Shown: one piece after another, positions 1,036-23,939 of the stretch
Layout: each line of letters opens with the position of its first letter
Position numbering within the stretch: the first letter of the stretch is position 1
Source of the DNA: Gracilariopsis chorda
Taxonomy: Eukaryota; Rhodophyta; Florideophyceae; Gracilariales; Gracilariaceae
Assembly (NCBI GenBank): GCA_003194525.1
Contig: NBIV01000178.1
Span: forward strand, 62,001 to 126,000
DNA length: 64,000 nucleotides
Reading direction: 5' to 3'
The notes under the pieces: model-generated
Database searches by the model: none
The model's input: only the letters and a program-made list of their open reading frames with translations
What the model was told of the DNA's origin: nothing
Translations under genes and position numbers: made by a program

Positions 1036-1053
1036 TGGTACTCTCGAGGAGGG
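1036..1053 (+). other. E1 primer-binding site
   Basis: Begins TGGTACTCTCGAGG directly after the LTR terminus, as expected for complementarity to a tRNA 3' CCA end. E3 has TGGTACTCTCGTGG at the same place. I could not assign the tRNA. The site lies inside the gag reading frame and encodes residues 5-10. Confidence 0.6.
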
Positions 1054-2903: not shown

Positions 2904-5609
2904 GCAGCACGAGAAGTTACTCTTTTCAAAAAACTCTCGCACATTTCAGAGGATGAAAGAGACGACTTGGTTTCTTGTCTGAAGGACTCGAATGTAATCG
3001 CTTGGTCATTGAAAGACTTACGCCCAGCCGATGTGCCTGTTTCTCACTCTTTCGAGTTGACAGTTGACAAACCAATCTACTTCAGAGCCAGGAGGATGTC
3101 GCCGAAGCACAACGAGTTCGTACGCAAGGAGATTGATCTTCTTCTCGAAGCTGGTATCATTACCCCTTCAGCCTCTGCTTGGTCGTTTCCAATTGTCATT
3201 GCCTCGAAGAAAGATGGAAGCGCAAGGTTTTGTGTCGATTACAGAGAGCTGAACAGAGTCATGAAAGCTGACCGCTGGCCTTTCCCACGCATGGAAGAGA
3301 TCTTTGACGAACTTGGAGGTTGCTGTGTCTTCACTACGCTCGACCTGTTGTCTGGATACTGGCAAGTCAATATTTCTGAGGATTGCAAAGAGATGACGAC
3401 CTTTGTGTGCAGATACGGAACTGTCATGTTCGAAGTCATGCCATTTGGTCTCACGAATGCCCCTTCCACCTTTCAATGGATGATGGATCATGTGCTAAGA
3501 GGACTTCCATTCGTTCGGGTTTACATTGATGACGTGGTCATATTCTCAAGAAGCCTCAGAGAGCACGTGATTCACTTGAAGGCTGTGATTGGTCGGATTG
3601 CGAAGCATGGATTGAAGCTCAAACTGTCCAAATGTTTCTTTGCACTATCGGAGGTGTCTCTTCTAGGCCATGTCATCAACGAAGATGGAGTGTACGTGGA
3701 CCAAGAGAAGATTGCTAAGATCCAGGATGCCCCAATTCCTGCCACCACTACGGAACTACGATCTTTTCTGGGACTAGCCGGATACTATCGAAGGTTCATC
3801 AGAAACTTTGCTGAGACCTCCGCCGTGCTTCACAGTGCTACCTCGGGGAATAAGAAGCTGCGTTGGACCGGAGAGATGCTAGAAGCTTTCCATGGTCTGA
3901 AGAAAAAGATGACTAAGCCTCCGGTACTTTCATTTCCAAACTTCGAGCAGCCTTTCATTGTGGAAACGGGCGCCTCTAGTGTTTCACTCGGCGCAGTTCT
4001 CTCTGAGAAAAAGGAAGATGGGAAGATAAATCCTCTGCAGTTTGCCAGTCGTACTATGACCGCTGCGGAAAAGAACTACTCGGCATGTGAAAGAGAAGAA
4101 TTGGCAGTTATCTTTGCTCTCAAGAAGTTCAGATTGTATCTACTCTCGTCTGTTCCATTCAAGGTAATCACGGACCATATGGCTTTACGATATGCATTTC
4201 AGAAACGCGATATACATGGACTCTTAGCTCGCTGGCTAGACGTTCTGGCCGAGTATGACTTTGAAATAGTGTATCGCGCAGGCAAGGAGAATGGCGCAGC
4301 AGATTATCTGTCAAGGATAGTTCACGGAGACGAGGTCGAGCCGTTAGAAGATGAAGGCGACCTTACTTGTATGGCTGTTGAGCCTGACGACTTCTCTGGT
4401 CTTGAACCATACTACGCAAACATTGCGCGCTTCTTGTATGGTCTGCCTACAGATGAGACTGATGCACGTCTCCGCCAAGCAATCCGACGAAATGCGAAGA
4501 AATTCCTGGTCTGGGAAGGAAAATTGTTCAGAAGGATGCCAAACGCATTGCGAGTTGTTCCTGTTATTGGTCGGCGACAGATCATTATCAAGTCATTTCA
4601 TGATGAGATTGGATACTGGGATTTGAAGACTACAAGGAAGTTCATCACTGAGAGATACTGGTGGCCCACTATGCATGAAGATATCGGCAACTACGTCAAG
4701 AGTTGTGACGAATGTCAGAGACTCGCACCACTACCAAGGTATTACAGTAACCTTCGGACTCCCATTTCCTCTCTCTTTGACGTCTTCTCGATTGATTTTG
4801 CAGGTCCTCTTCCGACTACCGAATCCGAAAACCGTTTCATTCTGGTTTGTGTTGAGCATTTGACTGGTTGGCCACTTGCCGTAGCGACAAAATGGTCTAC
4901 GTCACAGGAGGTCATAGACTTCGTGAGAAAAGAGATCATTGCCGTGTTTGGTTTCCCTCGTATCGTGGTGTCGGACAATGCTACATGCTTCACTTCTAAG
5001 TCGCTCGTCTCATTCATGAAAGACCATGGTATCAAATGGAAAACGGTCTTGGCGTACGCCCCCATGTCCAATGGCCGAGCTGAAAGGATGGTTGGTACTC
5101 TGAAAAGAGCAATAGGAAAGAAAGCTCTGGATAATCGTTCAAGTTGGGACGAACACCTGCCTTCGGTTCTGTACGGATACCGGCGCAGACATCTTGCCAG
5201 TGGGATCTCTCCGTTCGAGTTGCTTTACGGCGTGAAACCACGTATGACCTCCGATGAAGGTGGTGTCGTGGCACGAGTTGGGGACTCCTCTGACCGGTTC
5301 CGCTCAGTGGAGCTGCTCGCATCAAGGAATCATAGAGCTAAACGTTCTGCTCAGAGGCCTTTGAAGGAAGTCGATGCAGTCTCCATTACGAAGTTTCAAG
5401 TCGGTGATCTGGTCCTTGTGGCTCGTGGAAAGGACGTGATCACTACCGTGAAATGGCCTGCTTTTTCCTCTAAGTACTTTGGCTCATGTCGTGTGATGAG
5501 GGCTCACCATCCAAGGTACACGTTGGTTTCTCCACACAACCGGTACACTCGCCATGGAATACACGCCCGTCGTTTGAAGAAGTATATTGCGCGCCCGATG
5601 GAAGGTTAG
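2904..5609 (+). CDS. pol: E1 pol: reverse transcriptase, RNase H, integrase
   Basis: Open in the -1 frame relative to gag from 2904 to TAG at 5607-5609, overlapping gag by 79 nt. There is no ATG at its head (TTG at 2967 where E3 has ATG). RT motifs include F-C-V-D-Y-R-E-L-N and the catalytic Y-I-D-D at 3522. RNase H follows, but the first catalytic Asp (T-D-A-S in E3) is Gly (codon 3969-3971). Integrase has the H-H-C-C finger ending C-D-E-C and a D-D35-E triad at codons 4794, 4974 and 5082. The end is a short basic tail with no chromodomain. The protein would copy and insert the element, but the RNase H change probably disables it. Length and order are normal for gypsy pol. Confidence 0.9.
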   Translation, partial: AAREVTLFKKLSHISEDERDDLVSCLKDSNVIAWSLKDLRPADVPVSHSFELTVDKPIYFRARRMSPKHNEFVRKEIDLLLEAGIITPSASAWSFPIVIASKKDGSARFCVDYRELNRVMKADRWPFPRMEEIFDELGGCCVFTTLDLLSGYWQVNISEDCKEMTTFVCRYGTVMFEVMPFGLTNAPSTFQWMMDHVLRGLPFVRVYIDDVVIFSRSLREHVIHLKAVIGRIAKHGLKLKLSKCFFALSEVSLLGHVINEDGVYVDQEKIAKIQDAPIPATTTELRSFLGLAGYYRRFIRNFAETSAVLHSATSGNKKLRWTGEMLEAFHGLKKKMTKPPVLSFPNFEQPFIVETGASSVSLGAVLSEKKEDGKINPLQFASRTMTAAEKNYSACEREELAVIFALKKFRLYLLSSVPFKVITDHMALRYAFQKRDIHGLLARWLDVLAEYDFEIVYRAGKENGAADYLSRIVHGDEVEPLEDEGDLTCMAVEPDDFSGLEPYYANIARFLYGLPTDETDARLRQAIRRNAKKFLVWEGKLFRRMPNALRVVPVIGRRQIIIKSFHDEIGYWDLKTTRKFITERYWWPTMHEDIGNYVKSCDECQRLAPLPRYYSNLRTPISSLFDVFSIDFAGPLPTTESENRFILVCVEHLTGWPLAVATKWSTSQEVIDFVRKEIIAVFGFPRIVVSDNATCFTSKSLVSFMKDHGIKWKTVLAYAPMSNGRAERMVGTLKRAIGKKALDNRSSWDEHLPSVLYGYRRRHLASGISPFELLYGVKPRMTSDEGGVVARVGDSSDRFRSVELLASRNHRAKRSAQRPLKEVDAVSITKFQVGDLVLVARGKDVITTVKWPAFSSKYFGSCRVMRAHHPRYTLVSPHNRYTRHGIHARRLKKYIARPMEG
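2928..2934 (+). promoter_or_regulatory. candidate -1 frameshift heptamer A_AAA_AAC
   Basis: In the gag-pro frame the codons are AAA (2929) and AAC (2932), preceded by A, which matches the X_XXY_YYZ slippery rule. The pol frame is open from 2904 and lies in the -1 frame, so slippage here would give a Gag-Pro-Pol fusion. The heptamer is not conserved in E3. I did not identify a downstream pseudoknot. Confidence 0.5.
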
Positions 5610-5640
5610 GGTTTCAGGTTGCCGCAGCGTGGCAACCCTT

Positions 5641-5653
5641 GAGGTTGGGGTTG
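5641..5653 (+). other. E1 polypurine tract
   Basis: The purine-rich GAGGTTGGGGTTG lies immediately before the 3' LTR start TGTCGG, the position where plus-strand DNA is primed. E3 has a similar G-rich stretch on the minus strand at 32650-32665. Confidence 0.5.
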
Positions 5654-6716
5654 TGTCGGTCGCTAATGTTGCGGAATGTGCCAAACATTGCTGGAACACA
5701 CGTGTAGAATGTTCCAGTAGTGTCTAGCACATTGCACGCTTTGTTGGCCCAGCAAGGACTAAAGTATTTTAGTGATGCTGGCCAAAATTGTCGCTTTATT
5801 ATTGGTTAGTGTGCAGCTCCAGAGGTCTCTAGAAGCCAATGGAGTAACCTAGACGCACACATGAGTAACTAGCAAGTAGAAATGCGTATTTGGCTCGTTT
5901 TTAGTGCCTCTAAACACTATAAAAAGAGGTTCTGAGCTTCGGACTTCGGTTTGAACTCACCTCCACAATCGACCAACATCTAAGCCCCACCCCCTATCAA
6001 CCTTCAGCCACTTCAACTATGATCAACAACAAGTGAGGCGTTCGCCACTGGATAAAGGGCTTCTAATGAGGCGTGTGCCGCTAGTTGTCCAATAGGGTGG
6101 GGAAGTACCGTCGCTAAGACCGGTTGAAGCGCCTTAGGCGGGGACGGGAGACGGGTAGTGTGTACCGAAGGTGTTTCTGTCGTCTGTGAGCCCCACCGGA
6201 GCTTTGCTCCGATAACGGTGTCGGTCGAAAGACCTGGTGATTTCCGGACGGAAGTACTTGACGGGAAGCTATCCGCAGGCGACGTGCCGTGCAACCTTTC
6301 CTGCAAAGGGCCAGCTTGGGTATAGAGTGAAAGCATATCCCGCTGTTAGTAGCTCTCCTCGGGAAGCCCTGTAAGGATTGTATGCGCCTGCTTATGGTTA
6401 GTGCAGAGGTAGGTAGGCTGCAGAATCCACTTTACATCCGAAGTTTCTGACCGGAAGCCGAGAATCTGACCCTTAGTGATCCTTGACATAATTCTTGGGT
6501 TGCGCGCCGTTTCAACAAAGAAGTTAAGAAGTTTTATTTGGGGATTGAGCCCCTTGCTCTCCCTAGTGTTGTTTTATTTCATCGAGAGGGTTTAGTTCTT
6601 TTGATCCCACTGTTTTCAACTTTTTTTGGGGCTTTTAGCTACGAAGAGCACTCTTTTGGCTTTTATTATTACAACTTTTTGGCCCCCTGCGTCACCGTCT
6701 CGTGATGGCACCCACA
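5654..6716 (+). repeat. E1 3' LTR
   Basis: Full length, 1063 bp, TG...CA, starting TGTCGGTCGC like both E3 LTRs. It is followed by AGTAT, the presumed target-site duplication, which is also bases 4-8 of E2's LTR. Confidence 0.93.
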
Positions 6717-7189
6717 AGTATAATGGGTGCAATGTGGCATCCTGCCTTTGGAAATGACCCCTACGGGCTGGTTGGGTTGTTGGCACGACTGCGCAGGTCG
6801 TACACGTGGGCCTTGGCAAGCCACAGTGGTTATTTAATTTTTAACTATTAGTTTTAGAACCATAGGTAGTATAGGTAGTACACGTGGTGCACTGCGTTAC
6901 AGTGCACTGCACCTGAGGTAGAGGGGCCTCGCACCAGATACTTATGCTGCTTGAGCTGCGACTCCCTCCTGAGGTAAAGTCAGAGACCCTCTTGAGTCTA
7001 CTAGCCCTCCTTTGGTTAGTTTCACTGTAATTACTTGAGGCTTCTACGTCGCTATTACGCCGCACGCCACTTCCTGTAGGCACGGCAGTTAGTATCGCCC
7101 GAGTGTGCCTTTTGTACCAGTGGTCTCGCCGTTGGCACAATTTCCTTTGGATTACTCCGTGGGTAGCGCTTCGTGCTCGGTATCTTACA
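6717..7189 (+). repeat. E2 5' LTR, split by E1
   Basis: Aligns base for base with 17477-17949 (18 mismatches by eye). The first three LTR bases, TGT, are replaced by the end of E1. Bases 6717-6721 (AGTAT) are therefore both LTR sequence and the 3' copy of E1's target duplication. Confidence 0.93.
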
Positions 7190-7194
7190 TTTTT

Positions 7195-7212
7195 TGGTCT
7201 CCCGACCTATAA
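7195..7212 (+). other. E2 primer-binding site
   Basis: TGGTCTCCCGACCTATAA lies 5 bases after the LTR end. E4 carries TGGTCTCTCGACCTATAA at 20054, one mismatch away, so both elements use the same tRNA primer. The tRNA identity was not determined. Confidence 0.65.
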
Positions 7213-7323
7213 CCATTGGATTCCGCACGGCTCACAGTTTGTGCACCATTGGAGTGACGAACTGCAGGAATCCTACCATTGGAAGTTGACTACCGACGAA
7301 CTGGTACTTGAAGCACCGCCATA

Positions 7324-9513
7324 ATGGATAACCAACCCCCCGTTCAGGAAGAACCCCGTACACCAGTGGCTCAACCATTGGAAACTCCTCAGGCATCCGC
7401 TACTGCCACCGGAACCTCCGGCGACAACGCGAGTGACCGCCGGAGCACCCGCTCACAGCCACAGGTAAACCTCCTCACACCAGTGGATAACCCAGAGGAT
7501 ATCGCTCGTAACGCCTCTTTGGCTGAGTTACTCCGTGGGAGGCTGGACTAGTACCGCTCGCACCTCAATACACCACAGGCAGGACCGCCGAATACCATTG
7601 GGGCTGTTACTAACAGTGGAATCGCTGACCTCCTATGGCCGAGGGTTCGCGAGATGCTCGACCCCCCTTTGGAAACCCTTGTGGATCTCCGGGTGACAGT
7701 CGCCCTCGCGGAGCACGCAGACCAATTGGCTGAACGTGTACTTCCTAAGGTATTGGAGTCTGACTCATTTGTGGACTCCCTCGCCATTGGTATTCGCCGT
7801 GAGGTGGGACGCCGGGTCGGCACCACGCCGCCCATCACGGGCGGACCTCAAAGTAATCCATTGGTATCCGTATGGCAACCCCGTTCCGAACCACCGGGAG
7901 CAGCTGCTTTGCCAGCCCCTCGCAGGACGCAACCACAGGTAGACCAATCGGGTCCATGCCCAGGGATCAGAAGGAATGCTCCTCGGCAAGAAGGCCTAAT
8001 GGACGTGCAACCCGTGAGGAACAACCGGGCCCAGCGCCCCGTCGACTCCATTGGTTTTGAGGCTGAAGATGAAGAGCCACTATTGGATTCGAGCCGCGCT
8101 GACCGTAGGAAAATGAGACGTAACCGCAGTAAGAAGTCGAAGAAGCAGAGGAAAAGCCGAAGGGACTTCAGCGGTAGCGAGTCTGATTCAGACTCGTCGA
8201 GTTCCAGTGGCTCAGAGACGGATGAGGCGGCTGTATGACGCCTCAAACCGTTGGCAACTACCAATGAACTCTTCAAGAGAGTATTGAATTACTGCACGTA
8301 CCGTTTGGCTGATCGTTCTACTCGGTACACGACCTCGGTGGCAAAGAATGTCACCAAGTGGGCCAAACGGATGCAGCTAACCATTACGGAGAAGTTCTCT
8401 GGCTCCAACCCCATTTCTATGCTAAGGTTTCTGAGTCTGTTCCGCACGGCCTGCGACCAGAACGGTATCCACTAGGGTGCCGCTCTGTATCTTTTTCAGT
8501 TTTTCTTTCATGGGCAGGCGCACGACCATGTGGTTTCTAAGATTTCTGGGACTACTGACCCAGTGGATGCTACCGACAGGGAGCTCCTAAGGTCTTACCC
8601 AGAGGTGGTGCATTACCTATTGGAAACATATGAGACGGACGACGTCAATATGGACGCCCATCAGGATGTGATCTCCTTTAGGCAAAGTTCCAATATGGCC
8701 GAGAAGGACTTCGCCAATAACCTTTGGAGAAAAGCCTACAGGTGCGGGAACGTGTTTTCCGAAGGTAGGTTGAAGCAGCATTTCATCGCTGGGTTGCTGC
8801 CTGCCATACTGACTCACGTTCGCAATCACCATATGGCTCATCAAGATATCTCCTATAGGCAATTGGCGAACTTTGCCGAAGGCTATGGCAAAACATACAG
8901 GACATCCCGCCGGGCAACCGACCACGACACCAGAGGAAGAGCAACTCCTGTCAGGAAATTCTCTCATGCCAATATGGTCGAGAGCTCCGATGGAAGTACC
9001 TCAGGAATACTCGAGGACGAGGGGAACATCCTCGCACTTTCCTTTGGTTCAGCTCCTTCAGGTCCGCCGTATATCCCGTCCACTGGTACTGGCGCGACCA
9101 CTCCTTCAGGTCAGCCCACGCCGAGGTATTCGCTCACTCACCCTCGTAGGGATACTTTTCAGCGCGCTCCTCAGGCTTGCTACATATGCTTGTCCAAGGT
9201 TACACCTTGTGACTGCATGAAATTCTTACCTAAGGATAGGCAGGAGAAACTCCTTGCCTTAAGGAATGAGAACTACCACGCTTGGCGTTCGGAAGGAATG
9301 TTCACCCGTAAGGCTCCGATGTACACGTCATCCCCTGGTTCGTCCAGGTACGTTACACCAATGGCTACGCCCTCCAGGGCTCCACAAGTCAACGTTGTCT
9401 CAATACCGGAGGATAATGGACGCTCAGAGATGCCAATGGATACTCCAGAGGGAGCACCGACCACTGGTATTGAAATTGCCATTGGTGGAGAAACTATGTC
9501 GGAAAACGCCTAG
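7324..9513 (+). pseudogene. gag: E2 gag
   Basis: A single frame from ATG 7324 to TAG 9511-9513 with three in-frame stops (TAG 7549, TGA 8236, TAG 8473) and no frameshift. The N-terminus is Pro/Thr-rich. A helical segment, a Lys/Arg-rich block and a Ser/Asp/Glu run (about 8100-8235) follow. The core (about 8250-8930) is a retrotransposon gag capsid domain and matches the E4 fragment at 21198-21611. After it come a Pro/Ser-rich stretch and a C-x2-C-type cluster (about 9175-9215) that is not a classic zinc knuckle. CCANTGG words fall in all three codon phases here. Gag forms the particle; this copy cannot make a full product without readthrough. Confidence 0.8.
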
Positions 9514-12500
9514 AGGAGCGGTGCGAGGCGAACCGCCCCTCAGAGGATTCCCACCTCACTGCCGAAGGTGATACGGTTCCCCCACAGGAATCTCTTTATC
9601 TTTTGGGAACTCAACCGGAAAGCCCAACGGATGATGCCCTAACCTTAAACCAATGGTGTGATGAAATGGAAGCCGCTAGGGATACGCCAGTTTGTATCCT
9701 GCGGAAGGAGAATTATAAAGTACGACACACCGTTGGATGGACTGCCTCTAGGTCTCGGGTCGTCACAAGCGTACTGGACACTGGGGCCGGTCCAAATTTG
9801 GTTTCACCCGAAGGTTCTACCACCTGGTTGGGAGGATGCAGTGCAGGTAAGGAAGACTCCTAAGGTTACAGATGCATCGAAACGACCGATGGACATTAAA
9901 GGAATCATTCCCCTTTGCGTACAGCTGGGTGACCTTCAGGTTCGCACTTGGTTCCTTGTCTGTCCTACCTTAGGAACAGAATGTCTCCTAGGGACATCTT
10001 TTATAGACCGCTATGTCAAAGCGATCTATCCCGGCCTCCGGAAGGTGTCTTTCTACTGCACCCGTCCTGTGGCTATCATCGGTTCCAAATCTGGTCCCGA
10101 GGCTAGCCCGCGTCGACCTCCACTGGAGCAGAATACCGTATCCAATGAGGTTCGGTTATCGAAAGCGATATCGATACCACCGATGACGCAGATTACCGCT
10201 CAGGTATCCTGCGAAGCCGCTGGTCTCGTGACGCTGCAGAATCACCCTCGGACTATTGACCGCCATTTGTCCTTGATGGCCAACGGAATTATAGACTGCA
10301 GACCAATGGTACCCTTTCAGGTTCAGATAAGTAACTTTCGGGACCGCCCGGTACGTCTACCCAAAGGTACAATAATTAGGATAGCGCACCCCGCTCCGAT
10401 GGCAACCATGGAAACCTCATGGGATGAACTCACCCCTACCTCCGACGAGGACGTCGAAAGTTGGGAGGGGGAGGTAAAATTTGGGAAGGAATTCGAATCC
10501 TATCGTCCTCAGGTTATAGAACTCCTCCGGGAATTCAAATCCATGTGGTCTGGCCAATTGGGCGAGATTCGTGCCACAAAGCACCGCATTGACCTTAGTG
10601 ATGACGCCAAACCGGTGTTCCAACACCCGTATAGGACAGGCCTTAAGGGACGCGAAATCGTGGCGGAGCAGATGGCAAAGATGCGTAAAGCTAACGTCAT
10701 CGAGCCAGCTCCGCCTCACGAATCCCAATGGGCAAGTCCCTTCGTCCTTGTGGCGAAGAAGGATGGATCTGTCAGGTTCTGCACTGAATACCGAAGGTTA
10801 AACGCAATGACCAAACGGGACAGTTACCCGATACCTAGAATGGATGACTGCCTCGATTCCTTAGGTAAAGCAGTGGTATTCACAACGCTTGATGCCAATT
10901 GGGGCTATTCGCAGATACGATTGGATGACGACGCAAAGCCCCTGACCACGTTCACAACCCACGAGGGATTGTTCCGTTTTACACGGATGCCCTTTGGTTT
11001 AACGAACGCACCCGCAACTTTCCAACGCGCAATGGATATAATCCTCTCTAGGTTTAAATGGAAGTTTGTGCTGGTTTACTTGGATGACGTGATCATCTTT
11101 TCAACAACCATACAGGAGCATTTCACCGACGTGAGGACTGTCCTAAGGATTCTCCGCGAGGCTGGAATAACATTGAAGCTGCCTAAATGCTTCTTTTTCC
11201 AAGCCTCTGTGGATTATCTTGGCCACGTCGTTCATCCGGGTAAACTCGAGGTAGCCAAGCGGACAACAGATGCCATCCGCCAGGCGAAATCTCCGAGGAC
11301 TCACACTGAACTGCGCTCCTTCCTTGGGCTTTGTAATGTCTACCGTCGGTTTGTTGAGGGCTTCTCAAAGATTTCAGCGCCCCTCAACGAGATGCTCAAG
11401 AAGGGCACGCCATCGGAATTTGATTGCCTAACGGAAGAACAGTACAGGTCTTTTGATACCTTAAAGGATAAGCCACTGAACCCTCCGATATTGGCGTTGC
11501 CCAAGCCTGGTAAACCGTACCTGCTGGATACGGACGCATCCGATGGACAGGTTGGATGTGCTCTCCTTCAGGAACAAGAATCACCAAAAAATTAATGACC
11601 CATTGGATACTGGAGTAGGACCCTTAACAGTGCCGAAAGGAACTACAGTACTACCGAAAAGCAATGCCTTGCTATCGTATGGGCAGTTCTAACCTTAAGG
11701 CCTTACCTTGAGGGAGTTCGGTTTACCATTAGGACCGACCACCACTCGCTCCGCTGGTTGCTGAATATAACTGATGAATCCAGTAGGCTCGCGAGATGGA
11801 GATTGCGGCTCTCCAAATTCGAATACGAAGTTAATTACAGGCCAGGGGTCAAACACCAGGCGGCTGATGCGCTCCGCCGCATACTTACCGATGGAACAGA
11901 CGAAACCCCTTTGGACGACGATATACCAACTCCAAACCTCGAGGGATACCAGACAGACCCAGATTATGACGTACTGCTCGCCCAATTGGTATGCTCCGAT
12001 GGTGACGAAGACGTTGATCTGGAGGAGATATACGTAATTGACTGGCCGCAGGAGCATTTGGATGACGAAGTGACCCTTGAGGTTAATGCTGTTGTGCCAG
12101 AGGAGAAGGAACTACTCCCTCTCACCCTACAGGATCTCGTACAGGCGCAGAAGGATGATGAGTTCTGCCAAGGGAAAGCGCAGCTTGTTGGAACCAGTGA
12201 ATGTCTTTATGACTTTGACCAATTCGGATTACTCTGGCGAAGTTCTCCTTTGGATGGTTCTATCCAGAAGGCCATTCCTAAGTCCCTACAAGCGCGGTTC
12301 CTTTACCTCGCTCACTACCCTCGGTTTGCAGGACACCCTGGAGGCACATGCATGTATCAAACCCTTAGGAAGCACTTCTATGGGCCCTTCATGGCGAATG
12401 ACCTTTGGAACACCTCAAGGACGTGCACTTCTTTTGCGAAGATCCGTGGGACACGAGCTCGCCATCAGGCTAAGCTCAAGCTCTTTCCAGCGGCTGGACC

Positions 12501-14142
12501 ACTGGAGTTCATCGCAATGGACATACTCGGCCCACTGCCGAAGTCCACCCACGGGAAACAATTCATCTTGGTTATTACAGATAGGTTTACCAAGACCAAG
12601 CGGGCTATTCCCTTGAGGACTACTACCGCTACGGATGTCGCTATGGCGTTTTTTACCCATTGGGTCTATCCTTATTGTTTGCCACTTTATCTCCTGACGG
12701 ATGATGGCACACAGTTCGTGTCGAAATTCTTCTCGCACGTCTGTGCTATCTTAGGTATCAAGCACGTCACCACGACGGCATACCACCCACAAACCAATGG
12801 ACAAGCCGAGCGGTTCAACAAAACGCCTGCGAACCGTTTAGTTCACTACACTGCTGAGCACCAATTGGATTGGGACGACTACGTAGAACCATTGGTTTAT
12901 GCCTACAACACACAGGTGCATAAGTCCACTGGCACTACACCATTCGATCTCACCCTGACTCGGCAGCCGCTACCATTGGGAGTGGATGTGAAAACCTCTT
13001 GGTTCCTTCAGGATATCACCGAAGGAATGACACCTACGCAGGCTAAGAGATATGCTCGCCGGCGAATCGATTCTATCCTACAGGCAGCGAGAACTACGCT
13101 ATCGCGATCGCAGTCAAGGTACAAAGCAAACTTTGACAAAAATGTTAAGTTCACACCTACCTTCAAGGCAGGTGAACTAATATACCTTGACCGCGCGCCT
13201 ACGGACAAGAATAATCCTCGGGGGGAAATTGAAATCGCCTCTAGGAAGCTCTTGCCGAAATCCATTGGCCCTTTCAAGGTGTTACGAGCATCTAGCCATA
13301 CGGTTACGATCGAGCGCGATGGCCTTGAGGATACCGTCACCGTCGATCGTGTTTCACACGCTCCACTGGCTAGTGCTGCTCCATTAGAACCATCGGCACC
13401 GCCTCCGGGTGACGCTCCTATCCCCGATGGATCCACACCAAAGGCTGGGAAAACTCCCTCCAGCGGTCTATCAAACGTTTCCTCCAGTGGTGTGACCCCT
13501 AAGGAAGTCACTGTTGACCCCACGGTCGCTCCTGCCAGCGATTATGCACCATTGGCAGAAATGGATTTACCTGAGGAATCGTTTCTTCCACTGGAAAGCG
13601 CCGACTCCTTTGGTGAGGGAGATCTCCCACTAGGTTTTGCTCCAATGGATGATATGGACCTTCCAGAAGAAGCCTACGAGCCGTTGGATCAGGGCGACGA
13701 AGCGACTGCTTCGCCGCGCGATGCTCTTCCTAATGGTTCGCTGCGCCCGGCGCATCGTCCTGGACTCCTGCCCACCTTAGGAACATTACCCGCGGAAAAA
13801 TTTGGCATAGCCTGCGGCGTTAAGAGTGATGTCTCCAATGGAACTGAGCCCCCAGGGCGTGGTAGTAGGTCTACAAGCTCGCGCCCAAAGAGCTTGGGTC
13901 CAACGGACACCATGGAGTTACCAGAGGAAGTATTACCAACGGAATATGTCGTCGAGGATATCCTCACGGCAGGGGTTGACGAACATGGCAACCCCATCTA
14001 CAAGGTCCGCTGGTATGGATATCCTCCGGAGTGTCACTCGTGGGAACCGCACCGGCACATCCCGGCGAACTTCATCTGGCGGTTCTGGCGAAAACAAGGG
14101 CGCACGGAGCGCGCCTTTTTAGAGGGGGCGTATGGCGCGTAG
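9474..14142 (+). pseudogene. pol: E2 pro-pol with integrase and chromodomain
   Basis: The protease opens in the -1 frame relative to gag (open from 9474), with active-site motif D-T-G-A at about 9778. A +1 shift near 9808-9815 moves the rest into the gag phase. RT has F-C-T-E-Y-R-R-L-N and Y-L-D-D (about 11080). RNase H starts with D-T-D-A-S-D and is cut by TAA-TGA at 11593-11598, then resumes in frame. Integrase has H-H then C-T-S-F instead of C-T-S-C (Phe codon 12433-12435), so the zinc finger is broken. The D-D-E core is present (M-D-I-L-G, T-D-D-G-T-Q-F, Q-A-E-R-F). An acidic linker precedes a chromodomain at about 13935-14080, which in chromoviruses steers integration to marked chromatin. 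The ORF ends at 14142. Confidence 0.88.
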
Positions 14143-14913
14143 CACGCGTGCACACGTGCACACAACTACACGCGCATGCTCTACCCACGTGGAATAAGCC
14201 AACAGATCAGTCTATTACAAAAGGCTCAGTTTATTTCGAATGTTAACTGGCTAACCGCTAACTTATCATCTAACCACTGGCTTACTGACATCGCGCGCGG
14301 CGCTTGCAACGGCGCGCGACGCTCGAAAAATCCACTGGTAATAGCCTCAATTTTTTTTAGATGGCTTGCAACACGGTTTTCGGGCCGAAAACAGAGAATC
14401 GGCCATACTCGGAAACGAGGCGGCGCACAGGCAAGCAGACACCGGATTTAGAATCTCCTTCAATGGCCCTTGTCAACCCCGTTGAGGCGATTTCGCCACT
14501 GAAGCGCGAGCCTGGCGCGGGCCAACGTTTGGCACGCCCAAAAATATGTCAATTACTTTATTTGATCAACCACGGGCGCACACGCGCACGCTCGAACACC
14601 GCTGGAATGGCATGCAGACCGGTGGCTTTATTTGATTATCAACTTCCGACGGACTTGTGACCCCCAGGGAGCCTAAGTCGGATGGCCGAGGTACACGAAA
14701 CGGTTGGAAGACCACGCCAGATTTTAAGCTTCCCATTGGCTCCTGAAACGGCACGGCGGCCCACTACGCTGCCAAGGATAACCAATGGATTGCATGCGCA
14801 AGCTCAACCGTCGCCGCTGGTCTCCATAGCGCGAATGGCGCGAGATAACTCACAAACGCATGTCGTTTACCTCAAGGATTTCTCTCCTAACGGGAGCTAC
14901 AATTACAGCTGCA
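14143..14913. other. E2 non-coding gap after pol
   Basis: No credible frame on the + strand. It begins with alternating purine-pyrimidine DNA (GCACGCGTGCACACGTGCAC region, 14141-14162) and includes CCANTGG words at about 14274, 14331, 14732 and 14781. It would be the 3' region of both pol (+) and antisense ORF B (-). Confidence 0.5.
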
Positions 14914-15753
14914 TTAGGAGGGCAGCGCGCCAAAGGAAAAAGGCGCTGGCGGCGCACCACTGGAAGACCCCGCACCGCCACCGGAAGCAGAAGCGCCGGA
15001 AGTACCACCCTTACACGGGCGGTTGCGCTTACGACGCTTAAACTGGCTATCAACGGCTGGGGGCAGAACAGACTCGGGAACCGTGTCCGGATCATGCGAA
15101 CCTTCGGAATCCGTTAGGTGACCCAGACTGAGCCCAAACCGCTGGTCCAAATTCTCAGTCACCCGTTGGGAGAGCGACGCCATGTTTTCCTGGAGGACAT
15201 TAGAGAGGTTGGAACGTAGCTCTTGCGTCTCCGTCTGTAGCGCTTCTAGCCTGACCAAACGGCGCAGCCAAGACCTGGCGGTCATGAGAATGTCTCCCAG
15301 GCGCCAATTGCCCGTGTAACCATTGGCGATCATTTCAGCTGACAGGCTCTCCAAAGCGGCATACGTCGCCACACCAAGCATGTGAGCGATCCCTTGCCTG
15401 GAGGGCTCAAGCAGTGGCGCCACGCTGACGCCGGCAGTGGTTACCTCAGGAACAATTGTGAGCGCTGGAGCCGCTGCCACTGGTTCAGCCACCGCCTCGG
15501 GAGCAGCCAACTGAACCACAGGAGGCGGAGCAACAATAGCTGGGGGATCCACCGTTGGCGCGACCACCGCCGGCACGAATGGCTCCGTAAGCACTGGAGC
15601 AGAATTCGGAAGGCCACTCGGGATGGGATCCACAGGTTCGCCCCCAAAGAGGTCCTCCACGCCGCTGGGGACTGCGGGGAGAGCCAAAGAGATGTCGTCA
15701 GGCGCCAGACAACCAACGGAGAACCCTCGAGCCTTTGGATAGTAATTTGCCAC
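14914..15753 (-). CDS. E2 antisense ORF B, coiled-coil protein with basic patch
   Basis: A 279-codon open frame on the strand opposite to pol, starting 4 bases after the TAA that ends ORF A. Its first start-like codon is GTG at 15753, so it may be expressed as a fusion or by frameshift from ORF A rather than alone. Residues 30-110 are Pro/Ala/Val-rich and probably disordered. About 120-215 is helical with heptad-like leucines. About 235-245 is a basic K-R-R-K-R-N-R patch that could act as a nuclear signal. The C-terminus is Gly/Ser/Ala-rich. I do not recognise a family. Its place between pol and the 3' LTR, in antisense, is that of the accessory frames known from some plant gypsy elements. 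Confidence 0.5.
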   Translation of the reverse strand: MANYYPKARGFSVGCLAPDDISLALPAVPSGVEDLFGGEPVDPIPSGLPNSAPVLTEPFVPAVVAPTVDPPAIVAPPPVVQLAAPEAVAEPVAAAPALTIVPEVTTAGVSVAPLLEPSRQGIAHMLGVATYAALESLSAEMIANGYTGNWRLGDILMTARSWLRRLVRLEALQTETQELRSNLSNVLQENMASLSQRVTENLDQRFGLSLGHLTDSEGSHDPDTVPESVLPPAVDSQFKRRKRNRPCKGGTSGASASGGGAGSSSGAPPAPFSFGALPS

Positions 15754-15757
15754 GTCC

Positions 15758-16801
15758 TTACGGGATTACATCCGGAACGGCTCGCAATGGGAACGCAGGG
15801 TAACTCTTACCGTTGTCCATGCCTGAAGGATGGTGCGGGAATGCCTGAAAGTTATCCGTTTCATAATCATACCAAAGGTAGCCCGGCGTGTTCGCCCAAT
15901 CCACTCGGAGAACATAATCCAATAGGTTCTCAACACGCTCCGCGCCATAGGCGGTGTCCCTCACCATGTTCTGGATCCCTAGTCCCCGAAGGTACACAAT
16001 GATCATCCTTGGGAGACGTACCAAACGACCAACAGGACTCGGGCAAGCGTTATCATGGCTCCAGAAACGGTAATCATTAGTACGAACGTTGCATCGCACG
16101 CCGAACCTACAGGTATCGAGAAAGGCCATCAGGACGACGACTGCCCACTCCACCGTGAGCACCTGCCAGGTTAGCCAGCTGCGTCTATCCGTAGGATCAT
16201 TAACCATCTGCTTCGAGTGGTAAGCTGCCAATGGGGGAGTCGGCACTGCCAGAAGGTTCGACACGCGCCAGAAATCCTGCCAGTCTATATCCTGGACGAA
16301 CGGCATCCTAAGGTACAGACCGCTCCTGTCGGGAGCTTCCATGTCATGGAACTCCACTTGATGCCAGCAGAAAAGATACCCGAGATTGGTGCGCATACGA
16401 CCTTCAGGTTCCGTGAACTCGTTCCAATAGGTACGGTCCTTCACCCAGTACATTTGGTCGTACGGGGGAGGGAACGATATCAATCCCAAGTGGTTGTGTC
16501 CTGAAGGCGGAAACTATACCGATGGATCGGCGAAGTTCTCGTACAGTTCGCGCAGTAAGAGGTTAGACCGCCGTTGGCAATCTTCTTCCTTCAAGGTACG
16601 GAAGTACGGCATATCTGGCATCACCTCCCTGACACATTCCGGTATGGTCATCCCACCCACAGGACAATGCAACCACCGTTGGTACCAGGCCACCTGACGA
16701 GCCCTCTTCGGGCCCCTCTGGGTCTCAAGGATTGCGGCGAACCGGCGTGCGTCAAAATACGTCCCCGGGCGGCTGAGGTACGTGCTCACGGGAAACGGCA
16801 T
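15758..16801 (-). pseudogene. E2 antisense ORF A, unknown protein with one nonsense codon
   Basis: From ATG at 16801 (an in-frame stop lies just upstream at 16808-16810) to TAA at 15758-15760, about 347 codons in one frame, interrupted only by TAG at 16514-16516. Open reading of this length on the antisense strand across a stop suggests past selection. The protein is rich in Trp, Tyr and Arg. It has one hydrophobic helix (around the segment L-T-W-Q-V-L-T-V-E-W-A-V-V-V-L) and many Asp/Arg pairs. No motif is recognised. It could be an accessory regulator or a captured host gene. ORF B follows directly, so the two look like one antisense unit transcribed inward from near the 3' LTR. Confidence 0.45.
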
Positions 16802-17473
16802 CCCCGCCTAGCGGTGCACACCACGCTGACGACCAACGGTGTGATCATAGCGATCCCCGGGACGGGGCACGCCGCCACCCTAGTTGGAATTAGCCATTGC
16901 GGGCCCACAATCGCTAGGAACCAATGGAGACGGAGGCGATGACAAACGAGGAACCGGCGGTAGGCGAATGTAGAGGCTCTTGCCAGTGCGATCGTACAAC
17001 CGACTACCGTCGGACATTTTAAGTACCGGTCAAAACACAACAGGACGGCACGATTGAGACGAGCGAACGAACGCAACCAATGTCACGACAACGGGGAGCC
17101 CTCCTAAGGAACGGCACTTTCCGCAACGACTCCCATGGGTAACACGAAATTTTGACATGGCTTCCGCCCGCCCCACCGGGCAACTTTTCCAATGGTGTCT
17201 CCTTAAGGCATCGTACACGCATTCCAATGGTCAGGATATTACTGCGAAGGTCACGGGAGCCCCGTGCGCTCCGATGGGAAGGTTGCACCCATGAAGCCCG
17301 CTGCGTCACCTGGGCACGTGTTGAATCAACCGCCACTGAGGGGGCTTCGTGCATTACGCACTCAAGCGAAGCCAAAGGAATGTAGCTACCAAGAGGTGAT
17401 CGCGCGCGAGCTTATACTGCGTGTTCCATTCGATTGGACTTCTCCGAGGACGGCAAAGTCTGGGAGCGAGATA
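16802..17473. other. E2 region before 3' LTR: possible antisense leader and polypurine tract
   Basis: No convincing gene. Short antisense frames are present but their composition is not persuasive. CCANTGG words are at about 16920, 17189 and 17224, and CCTAAGG at about 17102. The purine-rich TCTGGGAGCGAGATA at 17459-17473 abuts the 3' LTR and is the likely polypurine tract. The segment would be the promoter and leader of antisense ORF A. Confidence 0.45.
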
Positions 17474-17949
17474 TGTAGTATAATGGGTGCAATGTGGCAT
17501 CCTGCCTTTGGAAATGACCCCTACGGGCTGGTTGGGTTGTTGGCACGACTGTGCAGGTCGTACACGTGGGCCTTGGCAAGCCCCAGTGGTTATTTAATTT
17601 TTAACTATTAGTTTTAGAACCATAGGTAGTATAGGTAGTACACGTGGTGCACTGCGTTACAGTGCACTGCACCTGAGGTAGAGAGGCCTCGCAGCAGATA
17701 CTTATGCTGCTTGAGCTGCGCCTCCCTCCTGAGGTAAAGTCAGAGACCCTCTTGAGTCTACTAGCCCTCCTTTGGTTAGTTTCACTCTAATTCCTTGAGG
17801 CTTCTACGTCGCTACTACGCCGCAAGCCATTTCCTGTAGGCACGGCAGTTACTATCGCCCGAGTGTGCTTTTCGTACCTGTGGTCTCGCCGTTGGCACAA
17901 TTTCCTTTGGATTCCTCCGTGGGTAGCGCTCAGTGCTCGCTATCTTACA
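17474..17949 (+). repeat. E2 3' LTR
   Basis: 476 bp, TGTAGTATAATG...TTACA. It is followed by TTGAC, which should be repeated outside E2's left end (off-window). It differs from the 5' copy at about 18 of 473 comparable positions. Confidence 0.92.
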
Positions 17950-18670
17950 TTGACAACAAACCAGATAAAACACCTAAATACACTTGACCTTTCTCTTTTG
18001 CTCTTTCCGGAGGGACGACCAAAACTTTCTGCGCGCCGTTATACACAGTGCAACTGTCATAAAACCCAACTATAATTAATGTTCTAAAACATAGAATTCT
18101 CAGCACTAACTTGCAGCGTTCACCGGTAATCAGAATGAATATTTATGACCGTGAAGAAACGTCTGTTCTTGCACATCATACTATTGAACAAACAGTTATA
18201 GAGACCATTCAAACACCCCGCTTAAAAAAATTAACATATCAAATTTCGTAACCTTGAGAAAAACTACGCAATTTACTAGCGCAAATTAGAAGAGAAAACA
18301 AACAGTGCAAATTCGAAGTGTTCTTAACGACGTACCGCATCTTTTTCTCTGACTTGATATTAGATTTGCTCCTTATTGCCATACAAATCGGAAAGTTTTG
18401 TGTCAAAGACGTTTCATGATCTCATTTCGAAAAAGTTGCTGAGTTGGCAGCGAGTTTTGACAGAAAAGACTGTATTATCCGGGTAAGCGAACAAAACATT
18501 TAGAGCATAAGAATAAATCAGTCGTTATGTGACGCAAATATTGAAATACAAAATTGATTGATTTTGTCAAAGCACAACATGACACTAAAAACTTGCAGAT
18601 ATGAGAAGTTTATCGAAAAGTACATATTACATTCTTATGACGATAAATGAAATCAAGAGGATGTTTTTTT
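17950..18670. other. AT-rich spacer between E2 and E4
   Basis: No gene, repeat or RNA that I can support. The base composition is clearly more A+T-rich than the retroelements on both sides. Confidence 0.4.
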
Positions 18671-18820
18671 GCGTCTGTATACACTTGTGTATGCCGGTGA
18701 AGCTATCCAGGGAATAGCAAATGACATGCCGACACCTGGCATTTAACCGAGCGTGCACTGTCCTACATATCACCGACAGCCAGGTGAGAGTCTCGTGATT
18801 TCTCAGCCATGTCTATTTCT
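18671..18820 (+). repeat. 150-bp direct repeat, copy 1
   Basis: Matches 31090-31239 with about 18-20 mismatches and no indel (roughly 87%). It starts with a small palindrome, GTATACACTTGTGTATGC. It does not belong to any LTR in the window. The two copies lie outside E4, one on each side. Confidence 0.7.
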
Positions 18821-19155
18821 TTTTTTTGACAAAGAGAAATTCCTCTCCACCCGAGGCGGTGACAGGTTCTAAGAAATTTCACTCAGAGGACTTTGGGGAC
18901 CATGACTGACAACGGCCGAGATGGAACGGTGGCTGCCACAATAGTTGGCGAACCGCTTGTTGCAGTCCATACAGCACGAATACCACTTGGACGAGGTCAT
19001 TTTCAAAGATCGCCCAGTTCGGGAAACGCTGGTCTCCAGGAAGGAGTACGCCATGAAGCAGATGGGGGAGTAATGGGGGGATGGGCTTACGAGTCTTTGG
19101 AATCCGCCTTTTGACTTTCTCACGCTCGTACCCTCTAGACAAGGTGGATCATAAA
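18821..19155. other. Unassigned spacer before E4
   Basis: Several frames are open on both strands for 70-90 codons (about 18869-19142), but none is recognisable and none has a clear start context. It may be a coding remnant. Confidence 0.3.
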
Positions 19156-20051
19156 TGATTCAATACAGACGTGGCATCGGTTCAACTCCGGTATGAGTGG
19201 ACCCTCGGAAACTTTGGGTGAAACTAGATATGAATTTTAATTGGTATTTTTGAACCTTCGTTGGCGATTTCTGTGGTATCTGGAACAGATGGACGCGTGG
19301 CAAGCGTGCGGATATTACTCATGGTTGGCATGATTCACACGTGTCGTGTTGTGCCGTGGCCAGCAGTGACGCCAAGTGACACAAGAGTGTGGAACACAAG
19401 TGTGGCACACTACAGTAGTAGTATTCTTAAATTATTGTGACCCAATAGTAATTATGGGAGGCTGGCCTTGCCCTTTCACCCTGAAGTAAAGAAGAGCTGT
19501 GACTCGGCTCTAAGATTATCGCCTGCGCGAAGTGACCAAATCCTGCTGGGGTTTCAAAGCGTTCGGTCTCGTTATACTCACCTGCACAGTATCACTAAGG
19601 ACCGCTGATGTTTCTTACCCCGTAGGCTCGCTCAGTGTTCACTTTTTGTACCATTTTGGTTACTCTCTTTTGTGGGAACAGATAGCCGTTCGATTCATTA
19701 TTGAGTTTTGGCGTGCTTGCTGAACAAGCAACACCCCCCACCGCCGGGTCTCTTTCGCCTTTCAGCACGTCCCAGCGGGCTGTACCTTCCCCTTTGGCTT
19801 CTCCATTTTTTTCCTTTTCCGTTTCTGAATTTTCAATGGGCCAGAACACCGCTCACATGGGCCTGTGCACTACATTCACCAGCTGGTAACCCGATTCTCG
19901 GTATCACCTCCTTCGGTATAGCCGGAAGCCACCTCGGTTTTACACCCGAACACCGTGTGGTATGGAGGGCCCTGTCGCATCGCCTACCTCACAAGAGAGC
20001 AAGGCTGCAAACACCTTGGGAGGATTCCCCGCCTAGAGATATTGCTCCACA
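19156..20051 (+). repeat. E4 5' LTR
   Basis: Starts TGATTCAATAC, ends GCTCCACA. Long collinear similarity to 28952-29850, including the stretch that begins ATATGAATTTTAATTGG and the one that begins GCCGGAAGCCACCTCGG. Confidence 0.85.
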
Positions 20052-20053
20052 GT

Positions 20054-20071
20054 TGGTCTCTCGACCTATAA
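20054..20071 (+). other. E4 primer-binding site
   Basis: TGGTCTCTCGACCTATAA, one mismatch from E2's site at 7195, 2 bases after the LTR end. Confidence 0.6.
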
Positions 20072-20418
20072 TCTGTTCACCTATACTTGGTTTGATGACT
20101 TTGTGCGTTTCTGTGCTATTCCAGTTCTTTGGAAGAACCTATCAAGATCTTTCTGTTGCCCCAGTTATTTGGAAACCTCTGGTTCGAGTTCATTGAAGTT
20201 CCAAACACTAGGTTGATTGGTATGCAGTGTGCAGCCCTGGCCCCCAATTCTCGGACTGGTTCTACCGATGCAGTTGATATAAATCCCCGCAGGGTGCACC
20301 TCGCACGCAGAAATTCGTTCTGGAACGTTTGGATAACAATGAAGTTGGTTGGAACCCCCGAAGAACGCCCTAGGTTGCGTCTGCTCCACAGGCTATAACC
20401 CAGGCGGTTCCACCCCCA

Positions 20419-22560
20419 GTGGTCAAAACGCCGTCGGTGGCTTACCCTTTTATGGACGCAGCTGAGTTTTTTAGACTGGAGTCGATGTTCCACATCTCTA
20501 AGGTGGCTAATGTGTCTCTCCTCCAAGAGGTAAACGAATTTCGTCAGAAAGTTGAAATTGCCCAAGTTCAGAATGCCTCGGGAGATATCCGACTCTTACT
20601 TCGAGACGTGAACTCCATTTTGGATTGTCTGGGTTGCCCCAGGCACGGTTTTCAAGCACTACAACAAGTTTGTCAATGACATTGAGGTGGCCTTGGAACG
20701 TGTGCACGTTCGTTTGAATACACTGGAAGCAACCATCCGTATGGATACAGAAGCACCCGCGGAAGCGGAAAACGAAGTCGTCTCTATCGATTCAATTCGC
20801 CGCTCGGACAAACGACAGCCTCGTAAACCCAAAAAGGATGTTCATTACCTTGATTCGAGTTCGTCAGATTCTGACTCTGATCGCCACGCAGTGGATTCCT
20901 CATCGGACTCATGGAATTCTGTCTAAAAACGCAGGAAGTACCTTGCGACGATCTTGGGCGACTTATACTACTCAGTGAGTCATTCGCTCTCGCGGGAAAG
21001 GTAGACGTAACCTGGGACTCAAGGAGTTAAAACCTACGAATCCTCTTTACCGGAAATTTTTATCGTATCGTTATTATCGACTGAGTGATTCCTCATCTAC
21101 TGGTTTTGCACGAGGTGCCGGCAAGGTTAAAGATTGCATCAAACGCATGAATGTTACTCTTCAATCGAGTTGATCATCAGAAGAAGGTCCAATTCTGGTG
21201 CTTGACTTCCTTGCTAGGTTCGCTCAGGAGGCTGACATACTGGGCATGAGTGAAGCCCAAGGGTATCTCGCGTTACCGTATTTCCTAACGGGTATGGCTG
21301 AAGATCAGTTCAATTCCGTTCAAGGAACTTCGAGAGCCTCAGAAGGAGGAGTAACTTACTTGCCAGAAGTAGTTCATTACCTTCTCAGGTCATACGCTAC
21401 GGGAAGTGCCATCGACACGGCGATACTTGCGCTACGCAATATGAAACAGAGGCCTCGTGAAAGCGAAACGGTCTTATCAAACGGCTCGAATAAAGTGTTT
21501 CACCGTTCTGGTAATGCGTATTCCGCACAGGAGCTGTTTATTACGTTCGTTGATGGATTGGATCCCGCAATACGAGCACTCGTCGGGCGACACCGTGAGG
21601 ATAAAGGATAGATTTCATACCTTGAACTGGTCCAGTACGCCCAGGCTGAGGGAGAAACTCACCGTGCACGGAGTCATCCAAAAGGCCAGTTGGCGGGAGC
21701 CCTCTTCTTTGAGGAATCGTCGCAATTGATGTCTTTGCCCCAGGGCAGAACCGCGAATGCAGATATGGACAACGTCTAATACGCTGGAAGTCGCCCTGAT
21801 TCGTTTGGGACTACAAACTTGCCGTCGACATCGGCCCCGAGTTAGGAAGAAGAACCCGCTTTCTACGCCTGGGCGGCAGGTATGCAGGACATTCCGCTCG
21901 CTCACGCGTCAAACGGATCCCTTCTTACCTGCTCTGGATGGATCGTACCGAAGCTGCAACGTCAAACGGATAGCCATCGATAATACGATAAAGCGGCACC
22001 GGCTATCTGTCATAGATGTTACAATCATGTTCCTATCGCCCCAGAAAGTGACCTGACATTCCGGGAGGTGCCAAAGGTTATCGTGAATTACGAAGCGCTG
22101 ACCTCAGCTGATCGGACCCAAGTGCCGAGTACTTCATATGAAGAGGTGAAAGCATTACTCGCTAACGCCCCACTGGCACGAACGTATATTCCCGTGATTA
22201 AACCCAGCCCTGATCAACCGTTGGACGCGGTCGTACCCACGAATGGGATTAATTCTGGTTCCCGCTATGGGATTATGACATTGCATTCGGTAAATAACTC
22301 CTCGAAAAACTAGATTCGGGAGTGTCCCCTATTGGAGGGTGGTTTTCTGAGCAGAAGTTGACGTCCGAGGCGGTATAGATTCGCTCACCCGCTGTCAAGA
22401 TTCTTACTAGGAAAATGGCAGCAGCCAACGTGAGCTCGGAAACCATCTCGGTTCTTCGTCTTCCGTGGATACGTTCTCGTAATTTCCGTATTCCTGATAG
22501 AGCACTGGTCATGGGCAAGAGAAATCACAAATTTTATGCGGATCTTGGGCTGTCTAACCA
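20419..22560 (+). pseudogene. E4 gag remnant
   Basis: Homologous pieces in shifting frames. 20419-20679 is helical. 20687-20926 has a basic block followed by a Ser/Asp run, like E2 gag. 21198-21611 matches the gag capsid core of E2 (both have a P-E-V-V-H-Y-L-L segment). Later pieces (about 21650-22310) are more decayed. There are numerous stops and frameshifts and no coding potential left. Confidence 0.7.
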
Positions 22561-22579
22561 ATACATGGTTTGCTAGTTA

Positions 22580-23930: not shown

Positions 23931-23939
23931 CATCAATAT

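Follow-up and report, generated by a model that had tools for sequence, protein, structure and literature searches.

The 64,000-nucleotide (nt) window of the red alga Gracilariopsis chorda analysed here carries the element stretches E1 to E4 (Table 1), and our subject is one of them, E2, a retrotransposon with long terminal repeats (LTRs) whose whole length is patterned with the dinucleotides CC and GG set 3–5 nt apart. Relatives of E2 in the same 91-Mb genome, named below by contig (C188, C18 and so on), carry this pattern or one of a different spacing, and in the families sampled the spacing follows the clade of the reverse transcriptase (RT). The chromovirus-type Ty3/gypsy order of RT, RNase H and integrase with a chromodomain was found in E2, C18 and C144b; C23 gave no Chromo match, but its stretch ends before its frame does. 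The LTR pair is the only direct repeat of at least 40 nt in E2, so the array does not lie in tandem repeats. The 5' LTR lacks the TGT start found in the 3' LTR (positions 6714–6719 versus 17,474–17,479), and by eye the two ends of E2 show no matching target duplication.

Table 1. Features of the 64,000-nt window, with the evidence for each
Feature	Position	Strand	Basis
5' LTR of E2	6717..7189	+	direct repeat, 98% over 300 nt; ends read from sequence
3' LTR of E2 (TGTAGT...TTACA)	17474..17949	+	direct repeat; ends read from sequence
CC-N(3-5)-GG array stretch	6717..17970	.	352 non-overlapping sites vs 121
46 CCANTGG words (k=3, A..T spelling of the array)	7213..17230	.	word count
gag region, two open frames (7552-8238, 8476-9513)	7552..9513	+	Retrotrans_gag E=0.0013, below Pfam's cut-off
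pol: RT, RNase H, integrase, chromodomain; one stop between two open frames	9649..14142	+	open frames, Pfam
antisense open reading frame (ORF) A	15758..16513	-	open frame; genome-wide homologues
antisense ORF B, downstream part of ORF A's gene	14914..15765	-	open frame; single frame with A in some copies
E4 stretch (approximate limits), weak eroded-looking array, spacings 2-9	18671..31244	.	spectrum; 5-bp/3-nt inverted repeats 29 vs 12.6
E1, negative control, gypsy element	1..6518	+	CCHC-knuckle Gag; pol frame without chromodomain match; no CC..GG spacing signal
E3, negative control, E1 relative	31641..38193	-	no spacing signal

The sequence-only reading of this window had started from the palindromic word CCANTGG, and its count of about 46 in the interior of E2 was reproduced exactly, out of 74 in the window. 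The whole element holds 48, against 4.1 expected from dinucleotide shuffles within 60-nt blocks (maximum of 100 shuffles, 11), an enrichment of well over threefold; Markov models of orders 1, 2 and 3 fitted to 7213–17,230 predict 3.4, 5.7 and 9.1 words there, with maxima of 10, 12 and 17 in 200 simulations each. When 64 trinucleotide half-sites were combined with gaps of 0–6, CCANTGG ranked first among the gapped palindromes of E2, CCTNNAGG second (n=32) and CCTNAGG fourth (n=18). Shuffling synonymous codons, which preserves both the protein and its codon usage, does not remove the excess (14 words versus 2.7 in the second pol frame, 6 versus 1.0 in gag, 4 versus 1.4 in the first pol frame); this supports a cause at the nucleotide level, as had been proposed, and not codon bias or a protein motif. 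All four bases do occur at N (T 17, A 13, C 11, G 5), a mixture that also excludes an array of CCAAT boxes, but CCACTGG and CCAGTGG are not equally common, as had been stated (11 versus 5). Host DNA at 38,200–64,000 has no E2-like density of the word (10 versus 5.1, inside the shuffle range with its maximum of 12). The expected scarcity in the neighbouring elements was found in E4 (3 in 12.6 kb), although E4 has a weaker CC..GG excess of its own at spacings of 2–9; E1 and E3 have few words, 6 and 7, yet mildly more than the 1.3 and 1.6 expected, and no excess in CC..GG spacing. Over the whole genome CCANTGG occurs 31,643 times and a reversed control pattern 16,259 times; E2-type families may weigh on such word counts.

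CCANTGG is not itself the unit, however, but only the commonest spelling of CC-N(3-5)-GG, and we dropped a single-word reading since adjacent spacings and other spellings (CCTNNAGG, CCTNAGG) are also strong. With k for the number of nucleotides between CC and GG, E2 has 193, 150 and 101 sites at k=3, 4 and 5 against 62 expected for each spacing, while spacings of 0–2 fall under expectation (39, 40 and 44). Over 6717–17,970 the counts at k=3–5 are 210, 157 and 108 (65.4 expected), with a sharp lower edge at the size of a minimal hairpin loop: 47 at k=2, then the three values above, followed by 80 and 61. Over short distances CC..CC and GG..GG are for the most part scarcer than expected, and A or T is favoured beside CC and GG within the sites. 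Among dinucleotide arms only CC/GG is in excess, apart from two that CCANTGG and CCTNNAGG themselves contain, CA/TG (gap 1) and CT/AG (gap 2). Taken without overlap, these clamps occur about once per 32 nt in E2 and number 369 versus 122 in C18 (one per 26–32 nt in the two elements); neither element shows a clear periodicity, and no longer stems extend beyond the clamp in E2 or at the k=8–9 sites described below.

This array spans the leader, gag, pol, the non-coding gap and the antisense ORFs of E2, and both LTRs carry it, with 10 and 11 CC-N3-GG in 473 and 477 nt. Its weakest part at k=3 is ORF A (7 versus 4.8), where k=4 gives 14. The claim that the word falls in all codon phases, in the non-coding gap and in the antisense ORFs holds for the CC..GG sites, which lean toward the phases that use wobble positions. 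After synonymous-codon shuffling the second pol frame retains 53 sites versus 22.1 at k=3 (z 8.4) and 42 versus 21.3 at k=4. E1 and E3 show no CC..GG spacing excess (largest z 2.3, block shuffles), the pol of E1 has none over synonymous-codon shuffles, and the host stretch 38,200–64,000 is also flat.

A DNA search placed E2 among relatives of graded identity: a 94% copy on C188, relatives of 75% on C144 and 77% on C255, a piece on C266 (78%) and a family of 72% identity, for which nine copies were listed. Every relative of E2 that was measured has the k=3–5 excess (C188, C144, C255, C266, C4, C195, C18). Inside the 94% copy sits a second element, which we call C188ins (C188:49428-59148, 9.7 kb, with 829-nt LTRs of 96% identity), whose spectrum peaks instead at k=8 and 9, with 155 and 157 sites against 68; the matches flanking it overlap by 6 nt, which resembles a target duplication. 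C23 has the same peak (59 and 67 versus 26), as has a piece termed C18up (44 versus 16 at k=9). A further group prefers k=4–5: C144b has 81 and 87 sites versus 48 but 31 at k=3, C163 has 62 versus 24 at k=4 but 16 at k=3, and C22 has 54 and 49 versus 26.6, with 30 at k=3 and a broader tail. The geometries thus fall into three groups (E2 and C18/C4; C144b, C163 and C22; C188ins, C23 and C18up), and in an RT tree of nine rows, labelled by spectrum beforehand and drawn without C255, C266, C18up and E4, the k=3–5 rows join at 91/90, the k=4–5 rows at 98/97 and the k=8–9 rows at 100/100, with E1 outside on a long branch. The earlier suggestion that element families differ in their pattern is therefore borne out by the spacing spectra. 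Synonymous-codon shuffles again leave the preferred spacings in excess, with z of 11.2 in the C4 family (k=4; pol 88 versus 37.1), 6.3 in C23 (k=9) and 6.1 in C144b (k=5). Families also differ in detail: the inner bases are A..T in E2 and G..C in C144b, and the C18 family adds a preference outside the clamp for G at -2 and C at +2. A search of viral contigs with one query protein gave nine pattern matches, none of which was confirmed.

What the clamp encloses is clearest in the third clade, that of k=8–9. At the 155 CC-N8-GG sites of C188ins, the first and second inner pairs are Watson-Crick in 91 and 82 cases against expectations of 44 and 41, with no rise at the third (36 versus 39); at the 157 CC-N9-GG sites the first three are raised (72, 82 and 78 versus 42, 41 and 40) and the fourth hardly (43 versus 40). 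C23 repeats this, with 31 and 34 of 59 sites at k=8 and 33, 34 and 36 of 67 at k=9, where a slight fourth pair appears (24 versus 17). The stems of this clade thus have either 4 bp and a loop of 4 nt or 5 bp and a loop of 3 nt. Perfect inverted repeats of the 5-bp/3-nt type number 76 versus 10.2 in C188ins and 41 versus 4.0 in C23, compared with 18 versus 10.9 in E2, 13 versus 9.8 in C18, 12 versus 6.8 in C144b and 6 versus 6.9 in E1; host DNA is mildly raised (40 versus 26.4). Their arms are diverse, 56 different ones among the 76 of C188ins, 48 of which begin with CC. At each of 10 pair positions tested in this clade all four Watson-Crick types exceed expectation, and G-T and T-G lie under it in 17 of the 20 cells. 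The pair just outside the clamp of C188ins is complementary less often than expected at k=8 (31 versus 38) and k=9 (22 versus 37), and more often at k=5 and 6 (47 versus 33, 51 versus 40). Non-overlapping stems of 4–5 bp that start with C number 213 versus 33 over the 9.7 kb of C188ins, 102 versus 13.9 in C23 and 60 versus 33.7 in E4, with no excess in the host (67 versus 76.3). They are spread at 18–25 per kb bin throughout C188ins, LTRs included, one per 39–46 nt in the clade; linkers of 0–3 nt are absent in C188ins and occur once in C23, the commonest distance between centres is 17–24 nt, and pairing is in excess at distances up to 13 nt.

Comparisons between copies and families suggest that the units are conserved in several cases. 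C188ins and C23 are 87% identical, and starting from the stems of C188ins (overlapping stems being counted more than once), C23 keeps 583 of 634 stem positions (92%), 243 of 287 loop positions (85%) and 779 of 894 flanking positions (87%); of the pairs changed on both sides, 7 of 13 and 8 of 22 were still Watson-Crick. From E2 to C18, CC is kept in 93 of 129 places within sites (72%) and 76 of 135 outside (56%); from C255 to E2, CC and GG are kept in 78 and 79 of 99 within sites versus 109 of 174 and 104 of 165 outside; from E2 to C255, CC in 97 of 149 versus 90 of 154; and from C23 to C188ins, GG in 107 of 124 versus 122 of 170. E2 and its 94% copy show no difference (CC 210/235 versus 249/279, 0.89 in both). 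We read these figures as a probable sign that active lineages maintain the units and that dead copies decay neutrally, although some comparisons do not show it. The excess of 5-bp/3-nt stems declines from 10.2-fold in C23 to 7.5 in C188ins and 2.3 in E4, which may be an order of age, judged from frame integrity and LTR identity rather than dating. RNA folding of the sense strand gave mean z values of -0.93 to -1.35 in E2, C18, C144b, C188ins and C23 (26–36 folding windows each), compared with 0.15 in E1, -0.26 in E3 and -0.37 in the host.

The sequence-only reading had also suggested that the antisense genes of E2 encode the reader of its words. Both ORF A and ORF B belong to the same antisense gene, which lies between pol and the 3' LTR and in some copies forms a single frame of about 738–847 amino acids (738 in C4-family copies, 774 in C144b). 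The gene is real and widespread: copies include those on C69, C119, C18, C43, C844, C56, C474, C588 and C639, and a genome search gave 99 matches to ORF B and at least 150 to ORF A, where only 150 of 778 candidates were scored, so that divergent copies may be missed. C4-family copies hold either the 738-residue frame or, in many cases, a mere 192-residue remnant. Three antisense proteins share 77 invariant columns in their common stretch, and no Pfam family matches the protein. C188ins, with the strongest base-paired pattern, has no antisense frame of at least 150 residues outside gag-pol, all those on the opposite strand overlapping gag or pol; of the roughly 1.1 kb that separate its main integrase frame from the LTR, most is taken by a same-strand frame of 214 residues. 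The antisense protein is therefore not a general reader unless supplied from elsewhere, and the suggestion finds no support here, although the gene may be of importance to the element.

In every clade that carries it, the clamp closes over a loop of 3–5 nt, so a stem-loop reading unites the clades. E2 and its relatives would be patterned end to end with mini stem-loops under a 5'-CC...GG-3' clamp, with a geometry set per RT clade: in the E2 clade the clamp would directly close a 3–5 nt interior, most often spelled CCANTGG, in the second clade it would hold 4–5 nt, and in the third 2–3 further perfect base pairs would lie between clamp and loop. We favour, with less than even confidence, the view that these are cis-acting beads that a protein encoded by the element, one of replication or of the particle, would read. 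They would most likely sit on genomic RNA or first-strand cDNA, as single-stranded intermediates of replication; Gag is the first candidate for the reader; and each family would thereby recognise and condense the nucleic acid that belongs to it. What we infer here is the folding of the two-pair clamps in E2, their reading by a protein, the identity of that protein and the stage at which it acts. Only perfect Watson-Crick pairs count, which disfavours RNA helices of the ordinary kind; what is left is DNA in single-stranded form, a constraint that bears on both strands, or the writing of palindromes during reverse transcription. That a group of gypsy-type LTR elements carries such stem-loops as a private structural address over all its genes and LTRs, with stem and loop lengths fixed for each clade and with reading by a replication or particle protein of its own, probably on single-stranded DNA, is a somewhat more doubtful extension. 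The presence of a CCHC zinc knuckle in Gag gave no clean rule: E1 and E3 have two each (one of E1's with a stop) and C188ins one, and none was found in the scanned stretches of E2 (7190–11,000), C18, C4, E4 and C144.

Several observations weigh against this reading. RNA helices are expected to tolerate G.U pairs, yet in the third clade G.U fares no better than a mismatch (C188ins stems with one G.U, 29 versus 23.2; with one A-C, 37 versus 26.8), which is unlike selected RNA helices, points to DNA or a copying process, and weakens simple RNA-hairpin thermodynamics as an explanation. Two CC/GG pairs alone are no stable stem, and the slight excess of inner pairs in E2 at k=3 (82 versus 66) cannot reflect pairing across a 1-nt loop. 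Conservation is uneven: counted from C23, stems are kept in 720 of 814 positions (88.5%), loops in 312 of 369 and flanks in 1002 of 1148 (87.3%), a weaker contrast; GG is kept alike within and outside sites from E2 to C18 (92/130 versus 84/122, 0.71 and 0.69) and from E2 to C255 (96/149 versus 87/137, 0.64 in both), as is CC from C23 to C188ins (111/133 versus 182/222, 0.83 and 0.82). The RT frame of C188ins keeps little excess after codon shuffles (k=8, z 1.5; k=9, z 2.4, 29 versus 21.2). E4 folds with z of merely -0.20 on the plus strand (-0.70 on the other), and in general the folding excess is alike on both strands, so that neither is singled out. A sense-strand preference for ACC...GGA, considered as evidence for RNA, shrank against background GG and CC, which again singles out no strand, although some of it remains in C18.

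The sites could instead be read in duplex DNA by a two-fold symmetric protein of the element, a VANC-like anti-silencing factor or one that places a chromatin mark. Its half-sites would read CCA/CCT for E2 and CCG for the second clade, with spacing and protein evolving together. The motif is nearly symmetric under reverse complementation (CCA..GGA 36, TCC..TGG 33), its inner bases are specific to the family, and inner pairs exceed their marginals at gaps too small for folding; moreover, the -2/+2 flanks of C18 avoid two-sided complementarity (109 versus 151), as though a single good half-site were enough. Binding to duplex DNA accounts for the first two clades but not for the third, whose diverse arms covary through all four Watson-Crick types, which also makes the single dimeric reader of CCANTGG proposed earlier a poor fit. 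Each clade uses two or three adjacent spacings, and the sites run once per 26–46 nt through coding DNA, unlike the tandem non-coding VANC targets described in the accessible part of PMC5735166. Nor does duplex binding predict the strand bias at the centre of E2's CC-N3-GG (C 53, G 30 on the plus strand), which is strongest in the 3' antisense and non-coding part, and C188ins lacks an antisense frame outside gag-pol that could encode the binder. We consider such a protein unlikely.

Less probable still is a pattern without function, in which fold-back copying errors during reverse transcription write perfect short palindromes whose geometry is set by the clade's RT. It would account for strict Watson-Crick pairing without G.U, for arms of any sequence, for a placement indifferent to coding and to strand, for a geometry that tracks the RT tree and for the lack of extra conservation between E2 and its 94% copy. 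Such a process should, however, extend stems, yet pairs just outside the k=8/9 clamps fall below expectation; the arm excess in E2 and C144b concerns CC/GG (with CA/TG and CT/AG in E2) and not complementary dinucleotides generally, and the stems hold a minimal linker and a wide, even spread. That spread, dense and under-dispersed, would suit structural shielding, in which evenly placed stems limit exposed single strand and guard the RNA from small-RNA silencing or long duplexes, much like the genome-scale ordered structure described for RNA viruses, as would the folding excess of whole elements and the third clade's pairing excess out to 13 nt; but shielding, which we also hold to be improbable, has no need for a clade-private clamp spacing or for refusing G.U, and the two-pair clamps of E2 would protect little. 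An artefact of composition or codon usage is very hard to credit. The best-preserved carriers (E2, the C4 family and C188ins) are richer in GC than their surroundings, at 0.535–0.554, and rich in CC and GG, but neither codon-preserving nor 60-nt block dinucleotide shuffles reproduce the pattern, which is also present in LTRs and non-coding parts, and E1, E3 and the host have no spacing excess.

Finally, we would like to place the array, and the self-recognition that we favour for it, beside known systems. Genome-scale ordered RNA structure (GORS) denotes an excess of folding for which no uniform unit is known. The likeness, as far as accessible accounts of GORS go, is a genome-wide folding excess laid over coding sequence, with folding below shuffles in five pattern-bearing elements; the array here, unlike GORS, has a uniform unit whose size is fixed and which a CC/GG clamp closes. 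Dispersed packaging signals, in which many small sites along a genome promote assembly and their spacing matters, are described for RNA viruses and the pregenomic RNA of hepatitis B virus in the accessible part of PMC6281560. The third clade resembles them in its many small stem-loops along the whole element, and in the E2 clade only the clamp is seen; unlike those of RNA viruses, the units come once per 26–46 nt, exclude G.U (as seen in C188ins) and switch geometry between clades, and their reader here is a putative protein. In VANDAL elements of Arabidopsis, VANC targets are tandem repeats in non-coding DNA (accessible part of PMC5735166). The earlier comparison with VANC is apt as an analogy: both concern a short family-enriched motif replaced by another in related families, with density that matters and a family-private self-recognition, going by the accessible portions of PMC5735166 and PMC10398659. 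Our units, however, are dispersed through coding DNA and LTRs, variable in spelling and in one clade defined by base pairing. In place of one fixed word, CC-N3-, CC-N4- and CC-N5-GG are all enriched, with CCANTGG, CCTNNAGG and CCTNAGG among them, and in place of tandem non-coding motifs the array runs through gag and pol. A system of the VANC type would also call for a protein of the element that binds the motif and lifts silencing; the antisense protein of E2-type elements is conserved but matches no domain. Retand gypsy elements, a non-chromovirus plant lineage with a TRP28 domain, also carry antisense ORFs between pol and the 3' LTR, the place of ORFs A and B, and these are proposed to bind DNA (accessible part of PMC11963269); the E2-type proteins, unlike theirs, have no Pfam family, and the array extends to carriers in which a gene of this kind is not seen. 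The candidate reader may be compared with the Gag/nucleocapsid of the LTR retroelements Ty1 and Ty3, which handles its own genomic RNA (accessible part of PMC4974528); in contrast to E2-type elements, no element-wide array appears there, the words 'hairpin', 'distributed' and 'packaging signal' being absent from the accessible main text.

If self-recognition by such beads is true, a second, element-wide code written over the genes would decide which nucleic acid is copied or packaged and would switch between clades, giving a mobile element a new means of distinguishing its nucleic acid from that of its relatives and host. Self-genome recognition by LTR elements would become directly testable by recoding, and the spacing would offer a new means of assigning element families. 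Even as an error habit of the RT, clade-specific palindrome writing of this strength would be new to our knowledge. Our literature search, which most subscription papers lay outside, brought up nothing comparable in titles or in the opening lines of abstracts. A last observation concerns C266, where a 4.7-kb stretch within C266:102611-113000, next to the E2-type fragment, is repeated in the same direction at 99% identity.

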